Shown here in pieces: positions 1-20,882 of a DNA stretch of 20,882 nt (position 1 is its first letter; each line of letters opens with the position of its first letter). Made by a program: the position numbers and the translations under genes. Source of the stretch: a virus; IMG/VR virus record IMGVR_UViG_3300010334_000345, positions 1-20,882 of that record. One strand, given 5' to 3'. Under the pieces are notes generated by a model. That model ran no database searches and was not told the DNA's origin. It saw nothing but the letters and a program-made list of their open reading frames with translations.

Positions 1-3000
1 ATAGTCTTGTTGTCCATTAATTAAATCATTTATATGATTTTTTTGATTTTGCAAAGCTTCTGCTGCTCTATTTGCAGCATCTGCTTGATCATTTTGTTGA
101 GCATCATACTGTTGTGCATTAGAAAGAAAATCTGACATGCCCGATGTAACTGCAGACTGTGTTGAATATTGTCTTTCTAGTCCTGAAATAATCTCTGGAT
201 GAGTATTTATATTTTGTTGTTGGGCAAATGTTAGTTGTTTTAGACCCATAGACATCAGATTATTTATTCTAATAATAGATGTTCCATCTTTAATATTTTG
301 TGCATATCCTTGATCTATTTTTGCTAATTGAGGATCTACCTTTTTCATTTGATCTAATAATATATTCCACCCTGAACTTTGTCCTTGAATTCCTGCAAGA
401 TCTGTTCTCATACTTAATTTTAATTTAGCAAAATTGCTACTATTTTTGTCATAACTATCTGATGCTTTTGGATTTTTTCCAGAAAACATTGCTCCAAGTT
501 GCAACGGATCAGTTTTTGTTTGAGCTTGTGTTAAAAATGCTTTAAATTTATCTTTATCCGCAACATCATAAGTATTATATGTATCATATTTTCCTGTTTT
601 TGGATTCATTTGCCCTGATACCCTATGTGCAGTAAATGGGGTAAGAGATAAAGATTGATTTAGAATGCTTTTAGCAGTCATTTTTGTTGGATCAAGGTCT
701 TTGGTTATTTTTTGAATTGTAGTATTTCCAACACCAGCACTAGCTAAGAATGCTTTGTTATCTTCCATAACTTTTTTAATAGCTTTTGAATCTTGTGGAT
801 TTGGAAGGCTGCTAATTGCAGTACCAATTCTAGTTTTTAGCTCTGCGGTTATTCCTGAGATATCTCCGCCAGCAAGTTTATCTTTTAGTCCTTGTATAGC
901 AGTTTTTGTATCTTCATCTTGAGTATTTTTATAATCTGCTACTTGTTTTTGAAAATCTGATGTTGCTGTTGTAATTTTCCCAGAAGAATCAACCATGATG
1001 TTTGAAAAGTCTCTAGCTTTTAATCCTAGGTGCTCCATTGCTACAGCATCAACATTTAATGCATCTTTAACAAAAGCTGCTGCATTTTTTAATTTTTGTT
1101 CATGCTGTTTATACATACTATAGGCACCTGAAGCAATTGCTCCTACTACCGCACCACCAATTGGACCAAGTGGGGTCATGCCACCAATCATCGCACCCAT
1201 TCCAAGTCCTTGTATGGTAGATTTTGTTGTGCCTTCTTGCATATTAGCTGTAGCTTGTTGTGTTGCCATCATAGCCATTTGACCACCAAACATAGATCCC
1301 ATTCCTGGTCTAGATTGTCTACCCATTAAGAAACCAGCTTTTTGTCCCATAGTATTCATGTCGCTCATCTTTGCATATCGATAAGCAACTTCTCCCTTAG
1401 CATCTATGTACGGAGTTGACATTTGCCTTGCTCCAGAGAATCCAGCTCCAAAATTAGAACCAGCATTAACTATTTTTTGTGCACCTTGTTGAGCTAACAT
1501 TAATCCAGAAAGTCCTTTTTGTGCCAGAAGTGATGGGTTTGTCATTGCTCCAACATTATAGGCTATTTTTTGACCAGTAGTAAAACTTTCTGGAGCTTTT
1601 CCAAAATAAGCTGGATTTTGAACACCAGTTTTAAATGCAGACATTGTTCTACTTTCTTGCCATTTTTGTAAAGATAAAGCTTCATTTTTTAAAATCATGG
1701 CTCTAGCACCATTAGCTTGTCTAGTTGCTATTGCAGAATCTTTCATAGATTGTGCACCCATTAGAACTCCATCTCGCAATCTAGCACCAGACTCTATTAA
1801 GGTTGAACCAATTTTTGGAAGACCAGACATCATTCTGCTAAATTGTGCTTGTGTTTGAGCAGCATTAATTCTTGCTGCATCTACAGGAGTTGTTCCACTG
1901 CCCATTCCTTGTTCAGCTCTGACTAATTCTCTAGCACTTAGTCCCCTTTGTTGTTCCCTCGCACGAGTTATATAATCTCCTTGACCTCTAGGTGAACGAC
2001 CACCAGTATAGCCCGTGTCAAATCTAGGAGCTTTATTCCAGTTAATATCTTCTAATAAGCCACCATATGCCTTAGCAGCTTTTTTATTTATTACAAATTC
2101 ACCAGGCTCAAGCATGGCGGGAACCCTGTCTCCTTCACCAAATCCTGGAACCCAAGCACTTCCACCAGTCTGAAGTTTAGTAGTTATAAAGTTTTTCATA
2201 AAACTGGGTGTCATTGCTGGTTTAGACACAGGTGCATAAGTCGAAAGTATTCTTGAAAAAGAATTTGTAGGGTCTGTATACATTGCCATGCTATCTAATC
2301 TTGCATGCAAAACTTTATTAATTGCTGGAACAAAGTTTGCCCCATAACTTTTTTGTGTAAGTTCATCAAATATTGTCATTAATTCAGGAACTCCACCAGT
2401 TGCTTTTAATAATGCATTATGAATAAGTTCTTCTGAAACTTTTGACCTTAAAGTTTCTAAATAACCTTTACTAAAGTCTTCAATGTTAATTCCTTGTTCT
2501 TTAAGTAAAGTTTTTGCTACACTTGCAAGTTTGCCCATTTCATGCATGCTTCCCATATCTACATGTTCAGGTATTTTGCCATTAAATCCACCAGAATCTT
2601 TTAATAGATAATGCATGGAAGTTATTCCGCTGTCAACCACTGTTGGTACTTTGCCTACATAACCAAAATTTTCGTCATGCAGGTCTTGATTGCCAATAAG
2701 TAATGATTCCATATGTCTTTGGAATGTTTGTCTTGGATCAATTCTTCCTTTAAAATCTTGTGGAGAAACTGTTGTTGATAATCCAGAACCCTTATAAGTA
2801 TCAAAACCTTCCAAAAATTTTGATCTTAAAACAAAAGTTTCTTTTAGTGCGCCTTCACCAGCTGGGTCAATAAGTCTTGAAAATACTTGATCTATTGCAG
2901 CCTGAGATCCGCCTAAACCTCTTTGCAATTGATTAAGGAATGCCTCCATAATCATTTTTCTTTTATCTACTGGAGCCTCACCATAATCAAACATTCCAGG

Positions 3001-6000
3001 CTCAAACATTTGTTTTAGATATGCTGTTTGTGGTCCTGTGCTAGTTTCTAAATCATATGTTCCAGTAATTCCACTTTGAACAGCATAACCTAATGGACCT
3101 GTAATTTTTTTACCAAGATAATCTGTATATCCTTCTTGGAATCCTGGAATCATACCGCCAGTTTGAGCAACAGGAATTCTAACTCCATTAATCATTTTAG
3201 TTGAGCCAGGAGCAATAGAGTGAACAATTGGCAATCTAGTAGCAAGGTCACTACTGTATCCAGTTAATGGAAATTTTTGACCCTGTGGTAAAACATACTC
3301 TTTTTCATTTCCATAGTAAGTTTGTCCATTAAACAATTTTGAAACTGGAAGACCCATAGTTTCTGGTCCAGTCATTGCATGGAAGAAAAATGGAAGTTTA
3401 TTTCCACGAACCATTGCATTCCAGAATCTTTTATCATCAAAGTCTGGCATAAATCTTTTCTTTAAAAATCTAGTATCTTTAATATCAGTAAAGGATGTAA
3501 ACGGTCTTGTTGTTGATGCTTCCCAAGGACCTTGATAATTTGCCATAGCTGGAACCCTGTTACCTGATTCAGACATCCAGCCTTCTGGGTAATAACGATC
3601 TTCTGCTGCATTTACTAGACTTGTAATCCAGGGGTGCATATTTTGTCCACCCTTAACATTGTCAACAACCATTGCTCTTAAAAGATCTTGTCTACCAATA
3701 TTTCTCATCTGGTCATTAAATATATCTCTGTAGAAACCCTTGTATGTTTCTCCCATAGGTCTATAAGTATCTTTTTCGGGATTATTCCAAGGAGCCATTC
3801 CATGAAGAACTGGGCGGATCCAAGATTCTAAAGATTTTTGGAATTGTTCTTCTGTATATGGATTACCTCTAGCCATCCATGTAGGACCGCCACCTTCTTC
3901 ATATCCTGGAATTCCGCCACCTTTTTGCTTAAGCAAGCCTTGTCTCAAAAATCTCATCATAGTTGCTCTTGCTTCTATTTCTGGAATTCTATGCTGAACA
4001 TCCACTTGTTCTACATAAGCTTTATTAATAAAAGATGAATTAGGTCTATTGCCTGAAGAGCCATAATTGCCATAGGTAAATGAATTATTAAAAAGAGCAT
4101 CTGTTGTTATTCTTCTTAAAAGTCTATCTACAATATTACTTGTTGTACTTCTTGAGTCTTCTAAACCAACATCATTTTGTGAGTATAAGTTTGGTCTAAA
4201 ATCATATTCCCTGCCCGAAGTTTCTATTGGCATTCCCCGTTTTCTTAAATTTTCATACATTTTTTGACTAAACGGACTTAAATCTAATTCTTCTGGGACA
4301 ATTCCAATGCTTCCAATTCCTCTTCCTTGTTCTTTAATAGCCTGAGCTAAAGTTCTAGTAAATAAAGGAGACCTTTCGCTAGTAGAAAACATTGATGTTG
4401 GTTGCCAAGTTTGAAATTGAGTTTTACTCATACCTAAAAGGAATTTTTCATCTTTACCTAATGTATTGAAAAAGTCAAATTTAGTTTTTTCTGGTAAATA
4501 CCCTGGTTGAAGAACAAATGATTTTGTATTAAAAGTATATTCTTCTAATAATTTTGCAAGTTTTGGATTGCTTTGTAAAATTTCATGTCCGTAACCTCTT
4601 CGCATTAAATCTAATTGAGTTGGGGTAACAGCAGAATAAATTTGTTCTTGTAACAAACTTAACGCACTTGATGGGCGCATAGTTTTTTGAATATACTCTT
4701 TCATCAAAACGTCTTGTTCTTCTTTAGTTAAAGATGCCATACTTGGGACTGGTGTAACTCCACTTTGATATCCTAAAATCCCACCGCCTTTTTGATAAAG
4801 TTTTGGACCTAAAAATTTAGAACTAAAAGTTTGAAATGGTTTTGGCATAGACTCTAAGCGCAAAAGATTTTCTTCGTTTGATGAATTTTTTAATGATGCC
4901 ATTGTTTCAGCCATTGCTGGATAAAGTTCCTTTAAGTATTGTTCATCTCCATGCAATGATGGATTTGCTACTGTTCCACCAGACTCTATATATTTCATCA
5001 AATCTTGCGGAGAGCCTCTATGACTTTTAACAAAATCACTTAGTAGAGTAGCTACACCAATTCTATTATAAAGAATATGCTCATTTCCTTTGGTAACTCC
5101 CCTAAGCATTTCTTGTATGTGTTCAATAGCATTTGAAACTTTTTGTACCCCATATCTAGTAGGAACATAATTTCCCATAGTTCTAGTCATTTCTTTTAAT
5201 AATATTTCTGCACTTTTAAATTCTTCAAAATCTATTGGTTGTGTTCCACGCCTTATCATTGTTGAAATATTTGGACTAATAGACCTTACTAAATCTGGAT
5301 GCATTTGTGAGTAAATTTTATTTAAAAGTTCTGGGTTATGAGATAAATGCCCAAATATTTGATTTAATTCTCCAGAACCAATATATGCCGAACCAGTTGG
5401 AAAATGTGAGCCAAATACAATATCTTTGATTCTTTTTATTTCGGAGTTTCCAACAAGTCCATGAGATGCTTCGGCAAAATTAAATTCTGGTTTTCCAAAA
5501 TAATCTAAAAGACTTGAAACCCCTTCAACGCTTTCCCACTCTGGACCAAGTAACTCTCTTGCAAATCTAGCAACTATAGTACTTTTAGTATCTGGTTTTA
5601 CTGCTCCAGCATTTTGATATCCTCTAATTCCAATCGATTCTAATCCAGTATCCCCACCAGTCCCAAATCTTGGAGCAGCATTCCAATTAAGATGTTCTAA
5701 TAACCCGCCATATTGTTTAGCAGCATTACGATTTACAACAAATTCTCCTGGCTCAAGCATTGCAGGAACTCTATCTCCAGAACCACTACCTGGAACCCAA
5801 ACACCATCTTGTGCATGAATTGCTCCACCAGTTTGAAAACCTTTTGGAACTTGTCTAGCAAATAATAAAGCCTGAGATAATGGTTGTTTGTCCATACTTG
5901 CAACTTTGCCAAGTGCAGATGATCTAATGCCACCAGAAATTTCTGCACCACTAACAATTCCTGCTCTAAATTGCGCTGCAACAATTGCTGTTTCAAATGC

Positions 6001-8742
6001 ACTATTTGTGCTCATAATTGCTTCTTCAACTAAAAGTCGGTAAGCAGAAATATCTTCTACAATAGTTCCACCAAGAAGCTTAAAGTCTCTATTAAAATCT
6101 CCAATAACTTTTTGAATTTCTGCTGGTTTATCTGCAATGGTTGGATCAGACATAACTGTCTTAATTTTCATGTCAACAGCTTTTAGCATGTCTTCTGGAG
6201 CAGAAAGTAATGCTTGAGATTGTACAAGTGTTTCAATTAGATTTTTAAAATACTGCTCTTCGCTAAATACAACTCTATCAATAATTGATGTTAACGCTGC
6301 AGTTTGCTCTTCTATTGGCAGGGCAGCAATTTTTTCCATTTCTGCAGCTGCTTTAGAATCTGCTTTAATTTCTCCAGTAATAATGTCAAGTTTTATTTGT
6401 TCTAGTTTTTGGAATCCTCTAGTATAAACATCCTCTTTGCTTACCCCAAATTTTGGTCCATAGATAACATCTTCTTTTTTAAATTTTCGTTGAAGTTCTG
6501 CAGCAGCACCGCCAGATGGAACTGGTGCACCCCATTGCTCTGATGTACCTTTTCTCATCCAAGCTTCTTGATCTGATGTGCTAGGGAACATTGATTTATT
6601 TCCTAAGAACCTTTCAAGCATCGGGTGTTGACCTTGAATATTTTGCTCGTTATTTATCCAACCCCCCCAAGTTCTTGCTCCTGCGAACATATGTGCTCGC
6701 TCTATAGATTCAGTAGCACCAGCAGTTTTATTATAATTTGGATTAGCATATTGTAGTTCAGCTAATGTTTGTTGTGCGTATGGAGACGCAACTATTGGCA
6801 TTCTGGTACTACGAGCAAATACTTCATTAAGGCTTTTGGTCATTATGCCAATTTCATGGTTAAGTACGGTAAACGCTTCTACGGTTTTTTCAGTGGATGT
6901 TGTAAGACCATCCATATTTTTTGAAGATGCTAATGTTTCAACATTAATCATTTCAAAGAAGTTAGCCATGCTTCTAAAGCCTTCTATAACCCCGCCAGAT
7001 TTAACTCCACGAGCAAATATTCTGAAGTAATTTACGCCTTTAATAATATTACCAAAAAGGTTTCCAAACAAACCAACCAACATTAAAACTGGACCAACTA
7101 CGGCTGCCCCACCCAAAACATTAACTAACAAATTTTCTAATGGTTTAAATCTATCCAAGAAATGCATAATTTTAGTAAAAAATTCTAGAACCTTTGTTCC
7201 AAATTTCATAAACTTTTCGCCAAGTGGCATTAATGTTGCTTTAAAACTTTCTAATGCTCTAGACCATTTTGCAGTAGTTGATTCTGTAGCAATTTTCATT
7301 TCTTGATTAGCAAGATTAGCAAGTTCTGAAGCACTTGCTTTTGCAACCTTAAAAGCATTTTCGGTCTGGCTTCCTGCACGACCTAGATTTTCAAGCAGGG
7401 CGGTAACACGAGCAAACTGAAATTTTCCAAAAAGCTTTTCAATTAATTGTTCTTTTACAAGTGGAGATAATTTAGACATAGAATCCTGCAAAGCCTGAAT
7501 CATTTGAATTGGATTGCCCTGAGTACTATCTTTTATTTTTGTAAGACTAATTCCATATTTATCAAATTCAGCCCTAGCTTGGCTAGTTGGACCAATCATA
7601 GATGCAACTGCCGACTTAATTGCGTTAGCAGATTGTGCTGCTGGAACACCAGCTTCTTTCATAGCTACCATCATTACGGCAGTATCTTTATATGTTCCAC
7701 CCAATTGTGCAACAATAGGACCAACACGGGGAATTGAATCGGTCAAATCTTGCAAGTCTGTAGATGTCTGCTTTTGAATATCATTCAAGAAGTTTACAGC
7801 TTCTGCTACACCTTCTGTGCCAACCTTAAATGTTGTCTGTAGAGAAACAATTGTTTTTTGAGCAACATCTGAAGATACAGCACCAAGTTTTGAAAGCCTC
7901 ATGGCTTGTTCTGTTGCTTTAACAAGATTATCTCCAGTTACACCAACTGCAGCAAAGTTTGCAGCAGCCTTAACAGTTTCTGCTTGAGCAATACCCATAT
8001 TCTCAGCAACTGTTTTACTAAGAGCAATAACTTGACTTGATACTTTTGATATTTCTTGTTCGCTTGGTAATGTAAGACCAGTACCGTACATTCGCTGCAT
8101 TCTAGTAAGTTCTGTATTTACATCTTTAAATACCTTAGCAGCCATTGCACCAAACGCTGCAACAGGAACGGTCAAACCAACGGTAAGCTGACGACCTGCC
8201 CATTGTGTATTTTTACCCATGTTAACAAGGGATGTTCCCATTCCATGTATAACGGTATTTAATGCTTTTGTTTTTATAATTGCTGCTTCTTCTGCAGCAT
8301 TAAGTGATCTAAGATCAGATGTGAGATTTGTAATTACTCTAGCGTACCCAGTTCTTAGTGCGTCTGGTAACACAACGGATTTTGCAACCCTGGCTTGAGA
8401 TTCTGCAAGAGAGTCCAGCTCTGTACGCATACCCTTCATTGTTTGACGATAAATGCGGGCATATTCGGAAAAATGTAATTTTCCTGCCTGAAGCCTATTT
8501 CCAAAGTTGTCAATAGCATTTGACATCTTTACAGTTTCAATATTAAATGCTCTTGTTGACAAAAGCATTTTGTCAAACTGCGTTTGAATTTGAGCAAGTT
8601 GAGCGGTAGTTGCTCTTCCAGTATCTCCTAAAAGTGGTTTAGACTGCAGTTGTGCAACTGCAGCCTTTAACTCGGCTATCTGAGCATTAAGTTGACTAAA
8701 GTTTCCAGTAGCATTGACTTGAATGTCGATACGATTTACCAC
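1..8742 (-). CDS. Giant phage tape measure protein, TP901-type (3' end outside window)
   Basis: The tape measure sets tail length and leaves the virion ahead of the DNA. I read this frame through every line from the GTG at 8742 to the left edge and found no stop, giving 2914 codons with the C-terminus missing. The GTG has a GGAGG eight bases upstream and lies just after the chaperone stop. Residues 1-175 are helical. About 175-490 match the TP901 phage tail tape measure domain (GKNTQWAGRQLTVGLTVPVA, GVPAAQSANAIKSAVASM, then TTAKWSRALESFKATLMPLG). A hydrophobic stretch follows near 535-564. Residues 970-2244 hold a modular region listed separately, with kinase-like and ADP-ribosyltransferase-like motifs. 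Another Gly-rich hydrophobic segment lies near 2510-2545, and the last visible part is Gln/Ala-rich helix. The family and the position after the chaperone make the assignment firm; the size and modules are unusual. Confidence 0.95.
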   Translation of the reverse strand, partial: MVNRIDIQVNATGNFSQLNAQIAELKAAVAQLQSKPLLGDTGRATTAQLAQIQTQFDKMLLSTRAFNIETVKMSNAIDNFGNRLQAGKLHFSEYARIYRQTMKGMRTELDSLAESQARVAKSVVLPDALRTGYARVITNLTSDLRSLNAAEEAAIIKTKALNTVIHGMGTSLVNMGKNTQWAGRQLTVGLTVPVAAFGAMAAKVFKDVNTELTRMQRMYGTGLTLPSEQEISKVSSQVIALSKTVAENMGIAQAETVKAAANFAAVGVTGDNLVKATEQAMRLSKLGAVSSDVAQKTIVSLQTTFKVGTEGVAEAVNFLNDIQKQTSTDLQDLTDSIPRVGPIVAQLGGTYKDTAVMMVAMKEAGVPAAQSANAIKSAVASMIGPTSQARAEFDKYGISLTKIKDSTQGNPIQMIQALQDSMSKLSPLVKEQLIEKLFGKFQFARVTALLENLGRAGSQTENAFKVAKASASELANLANQEMKIATESTTAKWSRALESFKATLMPLGEKFMKFGTKVLEFFTKIMHFLDRFKPLENLLVNVLGGAAVVGPVLMLVGLFGNLFGNIIKGVNYFRIFARGVKSGGVIEGFRSMANFFEMINVETLASSKNMDGLTTSTEKTVEAFTVLNHEIGIMTKSLNEVFARSTRMPIVASPYAQQTLAELQYANPNYNKTAGATESIERAHMFAGARTWGGWINNEQNIQGQHPMLERFLGNKSMFPSTSDQEAWMRKGTSEQWGAPVPSGGAAAELQRKFKKEDVIYGPKFGVSKEDVYTRGFQKLEQIKLDIITGEIKADSKAAAEMEKIAALPIEEQTAALTSIIDRVVFSEEQYFKNLIETLVQSQALLSAPEDMLKAVDMKIKTVMSDPTIADKPAEIQKVIGDFNRDFKLLGGTIVEDISAYRLLVEEAIMSTNSAFETAIVAAQFRAGIVSGAEISGGIRSSALGKVASMDKQPLSQALLFARQVPKGFQTGGAIHAQDGVWVPGSGSGDRVPAMLEPGEFVVNRNAAKQYGGLLEHLNWNAAPRFGTGGDTGLESIGIRGYQNAGAVKPDTKSTIVARFARELLGPEWESVEGVSSLLDYFGKPEFNFAEASHGLVGNSEIKRIKDIVFGSHFPTGSAYIGSGELNQIFGHLSHNPELLNKIYSQMHPDLVRSISPNISTMIRRGTQPIDFEEFKSAEILLKEMTRTMGNYVPTRYGVQKVSNAIEHIQEMLRGVTKGNEHILYNRIGVATLLSDFVKSHRGSPQDLMKYIESGGTVANPSLHGDEQYLKELYPAMAETMASLKNSSNEENLLRLESMPKPFQTFSSKFLGPKLYQKGGGILGYQSGVTPVPSMASLTKEEQDVLMKEYIQKTMRPSSALSLLQEQIYSAVTPTQLDLMRRGYGHEILQSNPKLAKLLEEYTFNTKSFVLQPGYLPEKTKFDFFNTLGKDEKFLLGMSKTQFQTWQPTSMFSTSERSPLFTRTLAQAIKEQGRGIGSIGIVPEELDLSPFSQKMYENLRKRGMPIETSGREYDFRPNLYSQNDVGLEDSRSTTSNIVDRLLRRITTDALFNNSFTYGNYGSSGNRPNSSFINKAYVEQVDVQHRIPEIEARATMMRFLRQGLLKQKGGGIPGYEEGGGPTWMARGNPYTEEQFQKSLESWIRPVLHGMAPWNNPEKDTYRPMGETYKGFYRDIFNDQMRNIGRQDLLRAMVVDNVKGGQNMHPWITSLVNAAEDRYYPEGWMSESGNRVPAMANYQGPWEASTTRPFTSFTDIKDTRFLKKRFMPDFDDKRFWNAMVRGNKLPFFFHAMTGPETMGLPVSKLFNGQTYYGNEKEYVLPQGQKFPLTGYSSDLATRLPIVHSIAPGSTKMINGVRIPVAQTGGMIPGFQEGYTDYLGKKITGPLGYAVQSGITGTYDLETSTGPQTAYLKQMFEPGMFDYGEAPVDKRKMIMEAFLNQLQRGLGGSQAAIDQVFSRLIDPAGEGALKETFVLRSKFLEGFDTYKGSGLSTTVSPQDFKGRIDPRQTFQRHMESLLIGNQDLHDENFGYVGKVPTVVDSGITSMHYLLKDSGGFNGKIPEHVDMGSMHEMGKLASVAKTLLKEQGINIEDFSKGYLETLRSKVSEELIHNALLKATGGVPELMTIFDELTQKSYGANFVPAINKVLHARLDSMAMYTDPTNSFSRILSTYAPVSKPAMTPSFMKNFITTKLQTGGSAWVPGFGEGDRVPAMLEPGEFVINKKAAKAYGGLLEDINWNKAPRFDTGYTGGRSPRGQGDYITRAREQQRGLSARELVRAEQGMGSGTTPVDAARINAAQTQAQFSRMMSGLPKIGSTLIESGARLRDGVLMGAQSMKDSAIATRQANGARAMILKNEALSLQKWQESRTMSAFKTGVQNPAYFGKAPESFTTGQKIAYNVGAMTNPSLLAQKGLSGLMLAQQGAQKIVNAGSNFGAGFSGARQMSTPYIDAKGEVAYRYAKMSDMNTMGQKAGFLMGRQSRPGMGSMFGGQMAMMATQQATANMQEGTTKSTIQGLGMGAMIGGMTPLGPIGGAVVGAIASGAYSMYKQHEQKLKNAAAFVKDALNVDAVAMEHLGLKARDFSNIMVDSSGKITTATSDFQKQVADYKNTQDEDTKTAIQGLKDKLAGGDISGITAELKTRIGTAISSLPNPQDSKAIKKVMEDNKAFLASAGVGNTTIQKITKDLDPTKMTAKSILNQSLSLTPFTAHRVSGQMNPKTGKYDTYNTYDVADKDKFKAFLTQAQTKTDPLQLGAMFSGKNPKASDSYDKNSSNFAKLKLSMRTDLAGIQGQSSGWNILLDQMKKVDPQLAKIDQGYAQNIKDGTSIIRINNLMSMGLKQLTFAQQQNINTHPEIISGLERQYSTQSAVTSGMSDFLSNAQQYDAQQNDQADAANRAAEALQNQKNHINDLINGQQDY
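2011..2172 (-). repeat. VPAMLEPGEFV-type module in tape measure, copy B
   Basis: Residues about 2191-2244: QTGG, WVPGFGEGD, RVPAMLEPGEFVIN, AAKAYGGLLEDINWNKAPRF, DTG. It is very similar to copy A at 5653-5835 and closes the modular region before the C-terminal helical part. Confidence 0.85.
2173..3129 (-). other. Tape measure block 4, protein/lipid-kinase-like motif set
   Basis: Residues about 1872-2190. An N-lobe-like Gly-rich stretch (ITGPLGYAVQSGITGTYDL) leads into a strand AYLKQ, whose K1910 is a candidate ATP-binding lysine. A helix with E1933 (KRKMIMEAFLNQL) could be the partner glutamate. About 110 residues after the lysine comes LLIGNQDLHDEN (D2020, H2022, N2025), then a strand VVDSG (D2037). 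The D-x-H-x-x-N followed by D-x-G is the catalytic and metal-binding signature shared by aminoglycoside-phosphotransferase, HipA and PI3/4-kinase-like folds. Helices follow, as expected of a C-lobe. The substrate cannot be read from sequence. The motif set is complete, which argues for an active fold rather than chance. Confidence 0.55.
3130..3165 (-). repeat. Inter-domain linker QTGGMIPGFQEG, tape measure
   Basis: Residues about 1860-1871. It follows the GG-x-I-P-G-Y/F-x-E-G pattern and separates the ADP-ribosyltransferase-like block from the kinase-like block. Confidence 0.7.
3166..3891 (-). other. Tape measure block 3, ADP-ribosyltransferase-like motif set
   Basis: Residues about 1618-1859. 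Three motifs occur in the order and approximate spacing of the ADP-ribosyltransferase fold. The first is a strand with SWIRPVLHGM (R1643, H1647). The second is WEASTTRPF, with STT at 1743-1745. The third is a strand LPFFFHAMTG leading to GNEKEYVLPQGQKFPLTG, with E1813 and E1815 as an E-x-E pair. In the R-S-E class the first motif is usually an arginine before Gly; here the HG resembles the H-class, so the subclass is uncertain. If folded and active, it would use NAD+ to modify a target. The family is inferred from motifs only. Confidence 0.5.
3892..3927 (-). repeat. Inter-domain linker QKGGGIPGYEEG, tape measure
   Basis: Residues about 1606-1617. It is almost identical to the linker at 4759-4794 (QKGGG-I-x-GY) and separates block 2 from the ADP-ribosyltransferase-like block 3. 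Confidence 0.7.
3928..4758 (-). other. Tape measure block 2, possible degenerate ADP-ribosyltransferase-like fold
   Basis: Residues about 1329-1605. Features resembling an ADP-ribosyltransferase are an STS in MFSTSERSPLF (S1453-S1455), a following Gly-rich beta strand (GRGIGSIGIVP), and an acidic-aromatic REYDF (E1512) about 59 residues later. The expected arginine strand is unclear, since the candidate reads SFVLQPGYLP, and there is no clear E-x-E. It may be a degenerate relative of block 3 or unrelated. This is inference from spacing alone. Confidence 0.25.
4759..4794 (-). repeat. Inter-domain linker QKGGGILGYQSG, tape measure
   Basis: Residues about 1317-1328. It shares the Q-K/T-GG-x-I-P/L-G-Y/F-Q/E-x-G pattern with the linkers at 3892-3927 and 3130-3165. 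The three sit 245-290 residues apart, about the size of one globular domain, so they look like flexible joints between inserted modules. Confidence 0.7.
4795..5592 (-). other. Tape measure block 1, unrecognised, mostly helical
   Basis: Residues about 1050-1316, between the copy A module and the linker at 4759-4794. The sequence looks helical, with segments such as IVARFARELLGPEWESVEGV and VSNAIEHIQEMLRGV. I recognise no catalytic motif. It is not obviously transmembrane and has no cysteine cluster. It may be a folded domain like its neighbours, but nothing visible gives a function. Confidence 0.4.
5593..5628 (-). repeat. Degenerate linker with GYQNAG, tape measure
   Basis: Encodes RGYQNAGAVKPD at residues about 1038-1049. 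It resembles the other linkers (G-Y/F-Q followed by a small-residue turn) but lacks the full GG-x-I-P-G pattern. I list it as a weak member of the linker family. Confidence 0.35.
5653..5835 (-). repeat. VPAMLEPGEFV-type module in tape measure, copy A
   Basis: Encodes tape measure residues about 970-1030: QTGG, a VPGSGSGD turn, RVPAMLEPGEFVVN, AAKQYGGLLEHLNWNAAPRF and a terminal GTGG. It is closely similar to copy B at 2011-2172; copy A carries about six extra residues after QTGG. A D-x-VPAML-x-PGEFV-type motif is common in phage tape measures, where it often punctuates repeated or inserted segments. Together the two copies bracket the four-block modular region. Confidence 0.85.
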
Positions 8743-18017: not shown

Positions 18018-18029
18018 TAACATATGTTA
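18018..18029. repeat. Perfect 12-base palindrome at the end of the LamG gene
   Basis: TAACATATGTTA is a perfect inverted repeat that includes the TAA stop of the LamG gene. It lies about 30 bases upstream of the extended -10 at 17983-17991. Too short for a terminator by itself; it could be a protein-binding site near the -35 region, or chance in AT-rich DNA. Confidence 0.35.
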
Positions 18030-20882
18030 ACCAAGATTAGTTATGATATAGCTTTCTTTTGACGAAGCAGAGTATAATTTTGTTGTATTTTGATCTGTAA
18101 TTGAATATATTGTTTTGCCAGTAAACTGAGAATATCTGTCTAAAATATCTTCTGAAGTTGGTGGACTATTCCAAAATTGTAAATAACCATATGTACCCTT
18201 ACTTCTTGTAGAGTTCATTACTAAATTTCCACCATTTAAATATAAATTAGATGCAGTTGGAGAAGATAAAACAAGTGTTAAATGATACACTTCATTCTGA
18301 CTAGCGGAATAAGTTCCGTCAATTACGGATGCTCCATTTATATAAAGTGTGCCCCCCAAAGATCTAAATTTTCCAAGATTATCTATGTATATAGCTGGAG
18401 CGGTAGCAATAGAAGCAGAACTAATACTTTGGTCTATTTTATTATTTATTATATGTACTGGACTAGCATATAGCAAATTTGAAGTTGATAAATTAGTAGT
18501 TCCATTCCAAGATGCTGTGGAAAATGATCCGTCAAAGTATTCATTTAATGATGACGATTGTTCTAGCATGGCTCCGTCCGTTATATAGACTTGTGTTCCT
18601 AATGCTGATGCCCCAGTTGTATTAAATATTGCTGGAATTATATATCCAGTACTAGAATTTGTTAAAATTGTTACATAGACTCTTGTCCATGAAGATGTTG
18701 ATGTTACAAATACCGCTGATGTAGTTGCAGATACCGCTAATGTAGTTGCATTAATGTCTCTAATTCTTGCAGTAATTAATCCTCCTGGAGAGTTTAAATT
18801 TTTAACATATGCCGAAAAAGTGTAATAAGTATTAGGTGATGCTGATATATATGTTGTTGCTCCAGTATTTCCATAGGCAGAAATACCTGCAGCTGTATTT
18901 GCTGCACTTTGAACAGATATACACGCTGAAGCACCAAATAAAGATGATCCAGTAGAAACTCTATTGTTTGCTACAACTGCCCAATATTGAGTGTTAGAAG
19001 ACTCAAATGATGGGTTTGCCAACCTATTTGTTCTTAATGTTTGAGTTGGAATAAAATCTGGTCTATACCACATTTCAATGGCGGAATAAGAAGATGAATC
19101 TGGTACAGTAATAAGAGCATTTGTTGGTAATCCCCCATCAAATTTAATTCCAAAATTTTTCTGTCTTGCCAAAATATTATTTGTTCCATTTGATATTCTT
19201 AAATTTGGACTAACACTAGATGTTGATGATGACAAGCTATACATTTCATTATCAGATATCAGATTCATCGGACCATAAATATTATAATAAAAATTATTAA
19301 AGGACTGCCCTTTATAATCTAATACATAATCTGTATCAATTTGAACTTTTACTGCAATATTTCCCGCAACCCCAATTGTATTATACAAACTTGCAGTTTG
19401 ATGTCTATTTACAATGTTATAGGTATTACCGTTGTCAACAGAGTAGGATACCTGACAATTATCCATTGTTTTCCAGTCAAAGACTGTTCCATAAAATTTA
19501 TAAAACGGTATAACTACGGATGGTATTTGATGTATCCAGGTTCCTCTTTGTTTAATAAGAAATGGGCTAGATGATGCTGTTAACGGCATAATGAAATTAG
19601 ATACACTACCAAAAGGAATTGATGTAACACTAGCAAAATATTGATTTGTTATACCAAAATCTTTTATATAAGAATATAAAGTTTTTGGAGAATTATAATT
19701 ATTTCCTAAAGTTAATATTGAATTTTGATTCATGTTAAGAGGTAAACCAGATGTAGATGATGCTGTTATTCCAGAATTATCAGATGTATAAAGATTAATC
19801 AAACTTCCAGAAAATTGCACAGCAACATTTGAAGTTTTTGCGGTAGATGCTAATTGACCACTAGCTAAACTAACAATTGTTGTGGTAGATCCAGTATAAG
19901 AATCATACATTTTTAAATAATAATTTGTATTTCCATCTGGAACATTGTACTCTAAAAACATGCTTTGTCCATTTACATTTGATAAACCAAATAAATATTC
20001 ATTATAACTTCCAGTAGAAGTTCTATTTATTGTCATGTATAAAGTAAATCCAGTTTTCATATTGAAATAATTTGATAAAAAATTAATATCTACTCCCGCA
20101 GAACCTGACCAATTTATACCAGAAGAACTATTTATTGTATACGATGCTGTATTGTCGTAGTTAATATTAAATGTTGGATCCTTTAGTTTTAATGGGGTTA
20201 GTCCAGATTCAGTTACATTTAATTTATCTAATTCTCCAAGTATTAAAAAATCTTGTCCAGAAATAGTTTTTGCATATCCTAAATCTTGACTGTCATCTAA
20301 AAATGTAAATATAGATGTACTTGCAGAAATAGAACCTTGAAAGTTTGGTTTTTCATCATTTCCCGCCCAAAGAATATGTCTTTTTATTTGCTCATCTGAA
20401 AGCTGGTAATCATAAAAAGCTAAACTATTTATAAGAAAATTTGATGTGGTATTTGTATCTTCAATAACAAAAGATATATTATTTTTTGTTGCTGCTGTTA
20501 TATTTGAAAAATCATTAATTGATCCAATAGAACTATTTATTCCATTTATTTTTATGGAGTGACCTCCGTTAGAATAGGTTGCAACCACATAATATTGTTT
20601 ATCTAAATCATCTAAAATAGTATAGGAATCTATATTGTTGGTTCCTGGAAAATTATATCTAATAGTATTAGATTTATAATCATATACAATTTTACTAATT
20701 ACTGTTGCGCCGTTTTTTACTGATACCAGGGTGAGTTGATCATTTGCATAAGTGCCCGCACCCGAACCATTTAATTGATTATTTAAATTAAACCAAAAAG
20801 CAATTGTAAAAGTTCTGTTTTGATAGTTATTGGAAAAACATTCATATTTTCCAGCAGTATTAGCTATAGTAGCAGTAGTAGA
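18027..20882 (-). CDS. Large LamG / carbohydrate-binding phage surface protein (5' end outside window)
   Basis: The frame is open from the TAA at 18027 to the right edge, 951 visible residues; a GTG at 20588 is internal, because LamG-like sequence continues upstream of it (RTFTIAFWFNLNNQ). At least three concanavalin-A-like LamG domains are visible: one from the edge to about 20350 (ending YDYQLSDEQIKRHILWAGN), a second near 20110-19640 (MKTGFTLYMTINRTSTGSYN to KTLYSYIKDFGITNQYF), and a third from about 19160 to 18060 split by a carbohydrate-binding-type domain. The protein is rich in Ser, Thr, Asn and Tyr, as usual for phage adhesins and appendages. It probably binds host-surface glycans as a fibre, whisker or head decoration. 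Its place just before the portal module, rather than after the tape measure, is unusual. Confidence 0.75.
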   Translation of the reverse strand, partial: STTATIANTAGKYECFSNNYQNRTFTIAFWFNLNNQLNGSGAGTYANDQLTLVSVKNGATVISKIVYDYKSNTIRYNFPGTNNIDSYTILDDLDKQYYVVATYSNGGHSIKINGINSSIGSINDFSNITAATKNNISFVIEDTNTTSNFLINSLAFYDYQLSDEQIKRHILWAGNDEKPNFQGSISASTSIFTFLDDSQDLGYAKTISGQDFLILGELDKLNVTESGLTPLKLKDPTFNINYDNTASYTINSSSGINWSGSAGVDINFLSNYFNMKTGFTLYMTINRTSTGSYNEYLFGLSNVNGQSMFLEYNVPDGNTNYYLKMYDSYTGSTTTIVSLASGQLASTAKTSNVAVQFSGSLINLYTSDNSGITASSTSGLPLNMNQNSILTLGNNYNSPKTLYSYIKDFGITNQYFASVTSIPFGSVSNFIMPLTASSSPFLIKQRGTWIHQIPSVVIPFYKFYGTVFDWKTMDNCQVSYSVDNGNTYNIVNRHQTASLYNTIGVAGNIAVKVQIDTDYVLDYKGQSFNNFYYNIYGPMNLISDNEMYSLSSSTSSVSPNLRISNGTNNILARQKNFGIKFDGGLPTNALITVPDSSSYSAIEMWYRPDFIPTQTLRTNRLANPSFESSNTQYWAVVANNRVSTGSSLFGASACISVQSAANTAAGISAYGNTGATTYISASPNTYYTFSAYVKNLNSPGGLITARIRDINATTLAVSATTSAVFVTSTSSWTRVYVTILTNSSTGYIIPAIFNTTGASALGTQVYITDGAMLEQSSSLNEYFDGSFSTASWNGTTNLSTSNLLYASPVHIINNKIDQSISSASIATAPAIYIDNLGKFRSLGGTLYINGASVIDGTYSASQNEVYHLTLVLSSPTASNLYLNGGNLVMNSTRSKGTYGYLQFWNSPPTSEDILDRYSQFTGKTIYSITDQNTTKLYSASSKESYIITNLG
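18525..19035 (-). other. CBM4/9-like carbohydrate-binding domain inserted in a LamG domain
   Basis: The segment begins TNRLANPSFESSNTQYW and ends VYITDGAMLEQSSSLNEYFD, both hallmark phrases of CBM4/9-like jelly-roll domains in phage proteins. YYTFSAYVKNLNSPGG and WTRVYVTILTNSSTGYI lie between. It interrupts a LamG domain: the strand AIEMWYRPDF precedes it, and the remaining LamG strands (YIDNLGKFRSLGGTLYING, EVYHLTLVLSSPTASNLYLN) follow. Domain limits are approximate. Confidence 0.65.

Follow-up and report, generated by a model that had tools for sequence, protein, structure and literature searches.

The phage DNA analyzed here (a stretch of 20,882 nucleotides, hereafter the window) encodes a tape measure protein (TMP) in which a kinase-like segment is embedded. 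This segment is best explained as a HipA/PI4K-like kinase effector module that is delivered by the tape measure, that represents one of at least four exchangeable TMP cassettes, and that stems from an uncultivated relative of the Streptomyces phages in the Stanwilliamsviridae; taken as a whole, we consider this explanation moderately probable. TMP residues 1872–2190 would make up an inserted HipA/PI4K-type kinase domain with both lobes complete, K1910 and E1933 serving as the N-lobe pair, D2020 as the catalytic aspartate, and N2025 and D2037 as metal ligands.

Genomic context and the tape measure protein

The window covers a tailed-phage structural module with minus-strand genes in the order portal (Pfam profile Phage_portal, E = 1e-28), prohead protease, capsid protein, adaptor-type proteins, tail tube, chaperone, and then tape measure. 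The gene order agrees with that of the Streptomyces phages Phredrick and Elmer, and the capsid protein has 54% identity to its counterparts in Streptomyces phages. A large protein rich in Ser and Thr, with a length of 951 aa or more (18027–20882, minus strand), is encoded ahead of the portal gene and has no Pfam match at E ≤ 0.01.

The TMP reading frame runs from position 8742 to position 1 over 2914 codons and is open at the window end, so that the protein is at least 2914 aa long; its intact homologue in the viral contig L002 has 3281 aa. The designation of this product as a tape measure protein, made earlier in a sequence-only reading, is borne out by the PhageMin_Tail profile (E = 1.7e-27), the PHROG tape measure family (E = 4e-100), and the position of the gene after the tail tube and tail assembly chaperone genes, as in Phredrick. 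Two hydrophobic segments bracket all of the TMP cassettes; the second is the weaker of the two, and its L002 counterpart falls under the threshold used.

1–8742, minus strand: TMP gene, residues 1–2914, extending past the window end
5803–8742, minus strand: N-terminal part of the TMP with the PhageMin_Tail core and a hydrophobic segment at residues 534–571
1129–1194, minus strand: second hydrophobic segment, residues 2517–2538

Cassette organization and exchange

Between the conserved N-terminal and C-terminal parts of the TMP lie four segments of ~250–340 residues each, with a repeated linker between them that takes the form Q(T/K)GG-IPG(F/Y) or GG-WVPG. The linker DNA is almost identical at most boundaries, roughly CAAA..GG.GG..TTCCAGGAT.

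4795–5619, minus strand: cassette c1, residues 1042–1316
3928–4779, minus strand: cassette c2, residues 1322–1605
3898–3927, minus strand: linker QKGGGIPGYE at a cassette boundary, residues 1606–1615
3166–3912, minus strand: cassette c3, residues 1611–1859
2155–3165, minus strand: kinase-like cassette with flanking GG-IPG and GG-VPG linkers, residues 1860–2196
3136–3165, minus strand: linker QTGGMIPGFQ at the start of the kinase cassette, residues 1860–1869
2098–2172, minus strand: GG-VPGF / DRVPAMLEPGEFVIN motif ending the cassette block, residues about 2191–2215

Cassette c1 is 23–27% identical to the segment in the same place in L002 and two further contigs (L003 and L006), and the TMP N-termini of the phages compared are 70–87% identical. 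Identity between phages ranges from 40 to 70% for c2, while c3 is missing in L003, which also has different cassettes. Linkers and cassettes are absent from the TMPs of the isolated Streptomyces phages Phredrick and Elmer (2104 aa), which share residues 136–568 with the window TMP. Because of the divergence of c1 and c2, the absence of c3 from L003, and the cassette-free TMPs of Phredrick and Elmer, in-frame recombination at the linkers appears to exchange the cassettes.

By eye, c2 (FSTSERSPLF...RIPEIEAR) and c3 (RPFTSFTDIKD...NEKEYVLPQGQKF) resemble the STS and ExE motifs of ADP-ribosyltransferases. An ADP-ribosyltransferase identity of c2 and c3 was set aside, as it is supported by no profile and Pfam gives no relevant match at E ≤ 10.

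The kinase-like cassette

The kinase-like domain had been placed at window positions 2173–3129, which correspond exactly to TMP residues 1872–2190. Its proposed core residues, K1910 in AYLKQ, E1933, D2020, H2022, and N2025 in GNQDLHDEN, and D2037 in VVDSG, lie precisely where they had been reported, and the Gly-rich stretch described as N-lobe-like corresponds to the QSGITGTY loop and the strand ending near K1910.

3010–3081, minus strand: N-lobe with the Gly-rich loop QSGITGTY and a beta strand ending near K1910, residues 1888–1911
2917–2964, minus strand: predicted C-helix with E1933, residues 1927–1942
2668–2700, minus strand: catalytic loop IGNQDLHDEN with D2020, H2022, and N2025, residues 2015–2025
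2626–2640, minus strand: DFG-like VVDSG with D2037, residues 2035–2039

The same cassette occurs in the same kind of TMP in two independent viral contigs, L002 (100 kb; 78% identical) and L003 (73% identical), and an assembly artefact was rejected on account of this shared architecture. These are the only close relatives in scans of viral and genome collections, giving a family of three members, and a TMP scan of bacterial genomes found no copy of the cassette. K1910, E1933, D2020, H2022, N2025, and D2037 are invariant in all three, including in both homologues the D2020, N2025, and D2037 on whose conservation the sequence-only reading had made its proposal depend. On its own, the invariance of the six residues is weak evidence because mean column identity is 85%. 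The pN/pS values of the cassette in three comparisons (0.27, 0.42, and 0.34) are similar to those of the structural N-terminus (0.26, 0.35, and 0.38), and the cassette is therefore under purifying selection.

Relationship to HipA and PI4K kinases

The core signature [GHN][ND]xDxHxxN[hydrophobic]x(6-14)DxG is confined, within 663,000 aa of related-locus ORFs, to the kinase cassette (window, L002, and L003) and one subset of another cassette family in the same TMPs. It is not a chance occurrence, appearing in none of 20 shuffles of all 663,000 aa. When a DNA pattern for I-G-N-x-D-x-H-x-x-N-F was run on the 2.9 million viral contigs of IMG/VR, it returned 52 stretches, 47 in long ORFs and five in very short frames. 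Two of the 47 are the present cassette, and nearly all of the other 45 have a kinase-type N-lobe (FKP or similar) and an [IV]D after the motif. Nine of ten tested ORFs have PI3_PI4_kinase, HipA_C, or HipA_2 among their Pfam matches; several of these matches score under the curated cut-off.

A profile built from the three cassettes matches a pooled kinase profile at P = 9e-5, with the Gly loop, C-helix Glu, catalytic loop, and D-S-G aligned in matching order. The real score is 38.0, as compared to at most 24.6 for column shuffles and 15.5 for the reversal. Masking 13 catalytic-loop residues removes the direct profile match to kinases, and shuffling of the N-lobe around an intact loop still reaches the real score in 5 of 120 trials; the direct kinase match is thus mostly the catalytic loop.

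The cassette alone has no meaningful match in Pfam, PHROGs, NCBIfam, PADLOC, or the PDB. At the level of individual families, it has no Pfam match at E ≤ 10 to HipA_C (PF07804) or HipA_2 (PF20613) and lies outside their curated cut-offs, falls below the curated cut-off of PI3_PI4_kinase (PF00454), and has no match to the APH phosphotransferase profile (PF01636). The features that it shares with the broad HipA/PI4K superfamily are the LIGNxDxHxxN[FW] loop, D-x-G, Gly loop, and Lys strand, in that order, with modest support for the N-lobe. The core had originally been described as APH/HipA/PI3-4-kinase-like; the loop motif and profiles uphold HipA, HipA_2, and PI3-PI4-kinase, while APH is rejected because the LIGNxDxHxxNF loop is of the HipA/PI4K type.

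The tblastn matches in the cultured phages Arthrobacter Tank, Gordonia Schomber, and Cronobacter CR9 are taken as chance because they run antisense to the annotated gene, and a plasmid match to a LanM stretch (E = 5) was likewise discarded. A separate 2974-aa phage protein (L191:2233-11154, minus strand) has a DnaQ-type exonuclease match together with a C-terminal PI3/PI4K-like kinase.

Other cassettes in related tape measures

A second TMP cassette family, designated f2, comprises about 90 related ORFs or loci and 46 non-redundant sequences, and features GGLY...FVKP, a Glu in the next helix, LALESK, and GDKDLxxxN. Picked without use of the catalytic-loop motif, f2 matches the kinase profile at P = 3.4e-5 across both the N-lobe and the catalytic loop. 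The window cassette in turn matches f2 at P = 4e-4 with a score that none of 120 N-lobe shuffles attain, and the relation between the two thus exceeds the loop. In sister TMPs, the position after GVF in f2 varies.

A third kinase-like cassette (GHGDMHPGN...FDWG) is found at L048:16807-17520 and in five other contigs, in TMPs that also carry f2; its matches to ABC1 (E = 0.003) and APH (E = 0.012) are weak. Further domains seen in related TMPs are an OmpA peptidoglycan-binding domain (L048:9595-19539, residues 2081–2174, E = 6.6e-18) and an NlpC/P60 domain (L047:5576-13954, residues 2539–2634, E = 3.3e-8). The TMP of L022 has HExxH metallopeptidase-like motifs close to linkers, with no Pfam match.

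Predicted fold and catalytic competence

The alignment supplied to AlphaFold2 holds 39 sequences (3 cassettes, 16 f2 members, and 20 phage kinases), and its only invariant columns are K1910, D2020, N2025, and D2037. When the N-lobe is shuffled in control MAFFT alignments, Lys still fills the Lys column in 9 of 60 cases, and Lys plus Glu are retained in 5 of 60. The resulting model (pLDDT 74.5, pTM 0.77) has kinase topology. Its elements are, in order, strands 20–29 and 32–40 (K1910 in the second), helix 56–71 (E1933), strands 78–87 and 94–104, helix 132–145, the catalytic loop, a beta hairpin of strands 155–158 and 161–164, D2037, and a helical C-lobe with a pLDDT of 82–96 over model residues 201–280. 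With kinases in the alignment, the model has a beta-rich N-lobe and a helical C-lobe and not the all-helical or unrelated fold that the sequence-only reading had named as counting against a kinase. As kinases are abundant in the alignment, the model does not count as wholly independent evidence; from just the three close homologues, AlphaFold2 gave a pLDDT of 41.9 and no usable model.

All 50 matches listed by Foldseek against the PDB belong to kinases (best E = 9e-5; query-length TM about 0.3), with TM-scores that are low overall (0.3–0.5). Among the top viral matches are PI3/PI4K-containing phage proteins as well as head-morphogenesis proteins; a few implausible matches also occur at low rank. 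The 39-sequence profile finds PI4K type II, HipT, and HipA structures in the PDB, as expected for a profile that includes phage kinases. The order of elements and the kinase-only listed PDB matches fit a two-lobe kinase, in a model that was built with kinase rows and has low TM-scores.

Overall, we regard a kinase fold as likely. If the D-x-H-x-x-N / D-S-G motif had arisen by chance in an unrelated domain, this could account for a profile signal that rests on the catalytic motif, for the lack of a library match to the cassette itself, and for the failure of AlphaFold2 without kinase rows. This reading is quite improbable given the specificity of the motif for HipA/PI4K-like kinases, the link to f2 with an N-lobe signal exceeding shuffles, the confident C-lobe and kinase topology of the model, and the Foldseek result.

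Catalytic competence is probable. Some kinase-fold enzymes carry out non-phosphate chemistry, and the domain could instead be a pseudokinase or a non-phosphorylating member (e.g., one performing AMP transfer or nucleotide sensing) that serves as a binding module, a possibility in keeping with DSG in place of DFG and with the variable position after GVF in f2. However, the three members have K1910, E1933, D2020, N2025, and D2037 without variation, related phage kinases show DKG, DNG, or DRG at the DSG position, and the cassette is under purifying selection, all of which make such a member unlikely.

Proposed function and delivery

Phage tails expel their tape measures, which arrive at the cell envelope and in some cases have peptidoglycan-cleaving domains (PMC6116005, PMC5099701). 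In the favored explanation, a HipA/PI4K-like kinase effector, the cassette would ride in the tail tube, exit with the tape measure at DNA ejection, and most likely finish in the host cytoplasm, which is a sensible site of action because a kinase needs ATP. There, much like T4 Alt, MuF-fused enzymes, and other effectors that virions deliver, it would phosphorylate, or otherwise modify with ATP, a host component in a way that favors early infection. The analogy to HipA suggests, as a guess, a translation-related protein as the candidate target.

The case for cytoplasmic delivery is one of topology. In TP901-1, the part of the TMP flanked by two hydrophobic regions has a predicted cytoplasmic location (PMC5099701), and the window cassettes, which likewise lie between two hydrophobic segments, may share this fate. 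According to earlier work as cited in PMC5099701, tape-measure deletions and insertions altered tail length proportionally; phages with cassettes would therefore either be long-tailed or have their cassettes looped out.

Delivery is only inferred here, and the kinase could instead be active in the producing cell, where tape measures are synthesized, acting on tail assembly or lysis timing without passing to the next host; a 300-aa globular domain would also have to fit or unfold in the tube in order to be delivered. Yet cassettes appear unnecessary for assembly, because the TMPs of isolated relatives have none and L003 lacks c3 and has others, and known phages eject their tape measures (PMC5099701, PMC6116005). 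A role confined to the producing cell is accordingly quite improbable.

A broader reading, possible although we hold it at somewhat less than even, extends delivery to the clade, whose TMPs would be modular effector carriers that combine a ruler with exchangeable enzyme cassettes recombined at a repeated in-frame linker. Each phage would inject its own host-modifying set, with cassettes that include two or more families of HipA/PI4K-like kinases, domains that bind or hydrolyze peptidoglycan, and others.

Comparison with known systems and significance

Cell-wall enzymes in tape measures and effectors in head (MuF) and polyvalent proteins are already known. With HipA, HipT, and HipA_2 kinases (PF07804, PF20613), the cassette shares the Gly-rich loop, beta-strand Lys, LIGNxDxHxxNF, a D-x-G after it, and a predicted helical C-lobe. 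Unlike them, it sits in a tape measure and not in a toxin–antitoxin gene, no antitoxin partner is seen beside it, and alone it has no significant family match. The PI3/PI4-kinase-like domains of phage polyvalent and MuF head proteins have the fold class and catalytic loop in common with the cassette and are also hosted by large phage proteins, some thought to be delivered with the DNA. Those domains, about 14–21% identical to the window cassette, reside in head-associated or other polyvalent proteins, whereas the cassette resides in a tail tape measure.

The polyvalent-protein kinases (Iyer et al. 2017, PMC5512222) are likewise phage-borne kinases within a multidomain delivered protein. In these, the C-terminal subdomain is missing and an insert separates the catalytic His and Asp (PMC5512222), while the cassette is insert-free, is predicted to have a helical C-lobe, and so falls outside this group. 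PMC5512222 makes no mention of tape measures. The tape measures of T5, TM4, and phiIPLA35 also contain an enzymatic domain, a peptidoglycan hydrolase (PMC6116005), but these domains target the cell wall, whereas the ATP need of a kinase points to the cytoplasm. The literature searched, which excludes most subscription papers, yielded no kinase in a tape measure, in agreement with the earlier statement that no well-described phage tape measure is known to have an intact kinase core.

If the favored explanation is true, long-tailed phages would gain a delivery route for host-modifying enzymes. The depth of tape-measure entry would become testable, since a kinase needs ATP and phosphorylation would thus report cytoplasmic entry. 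The large variation in tape-measure length would, in addition, suggest cargo besides tail length.
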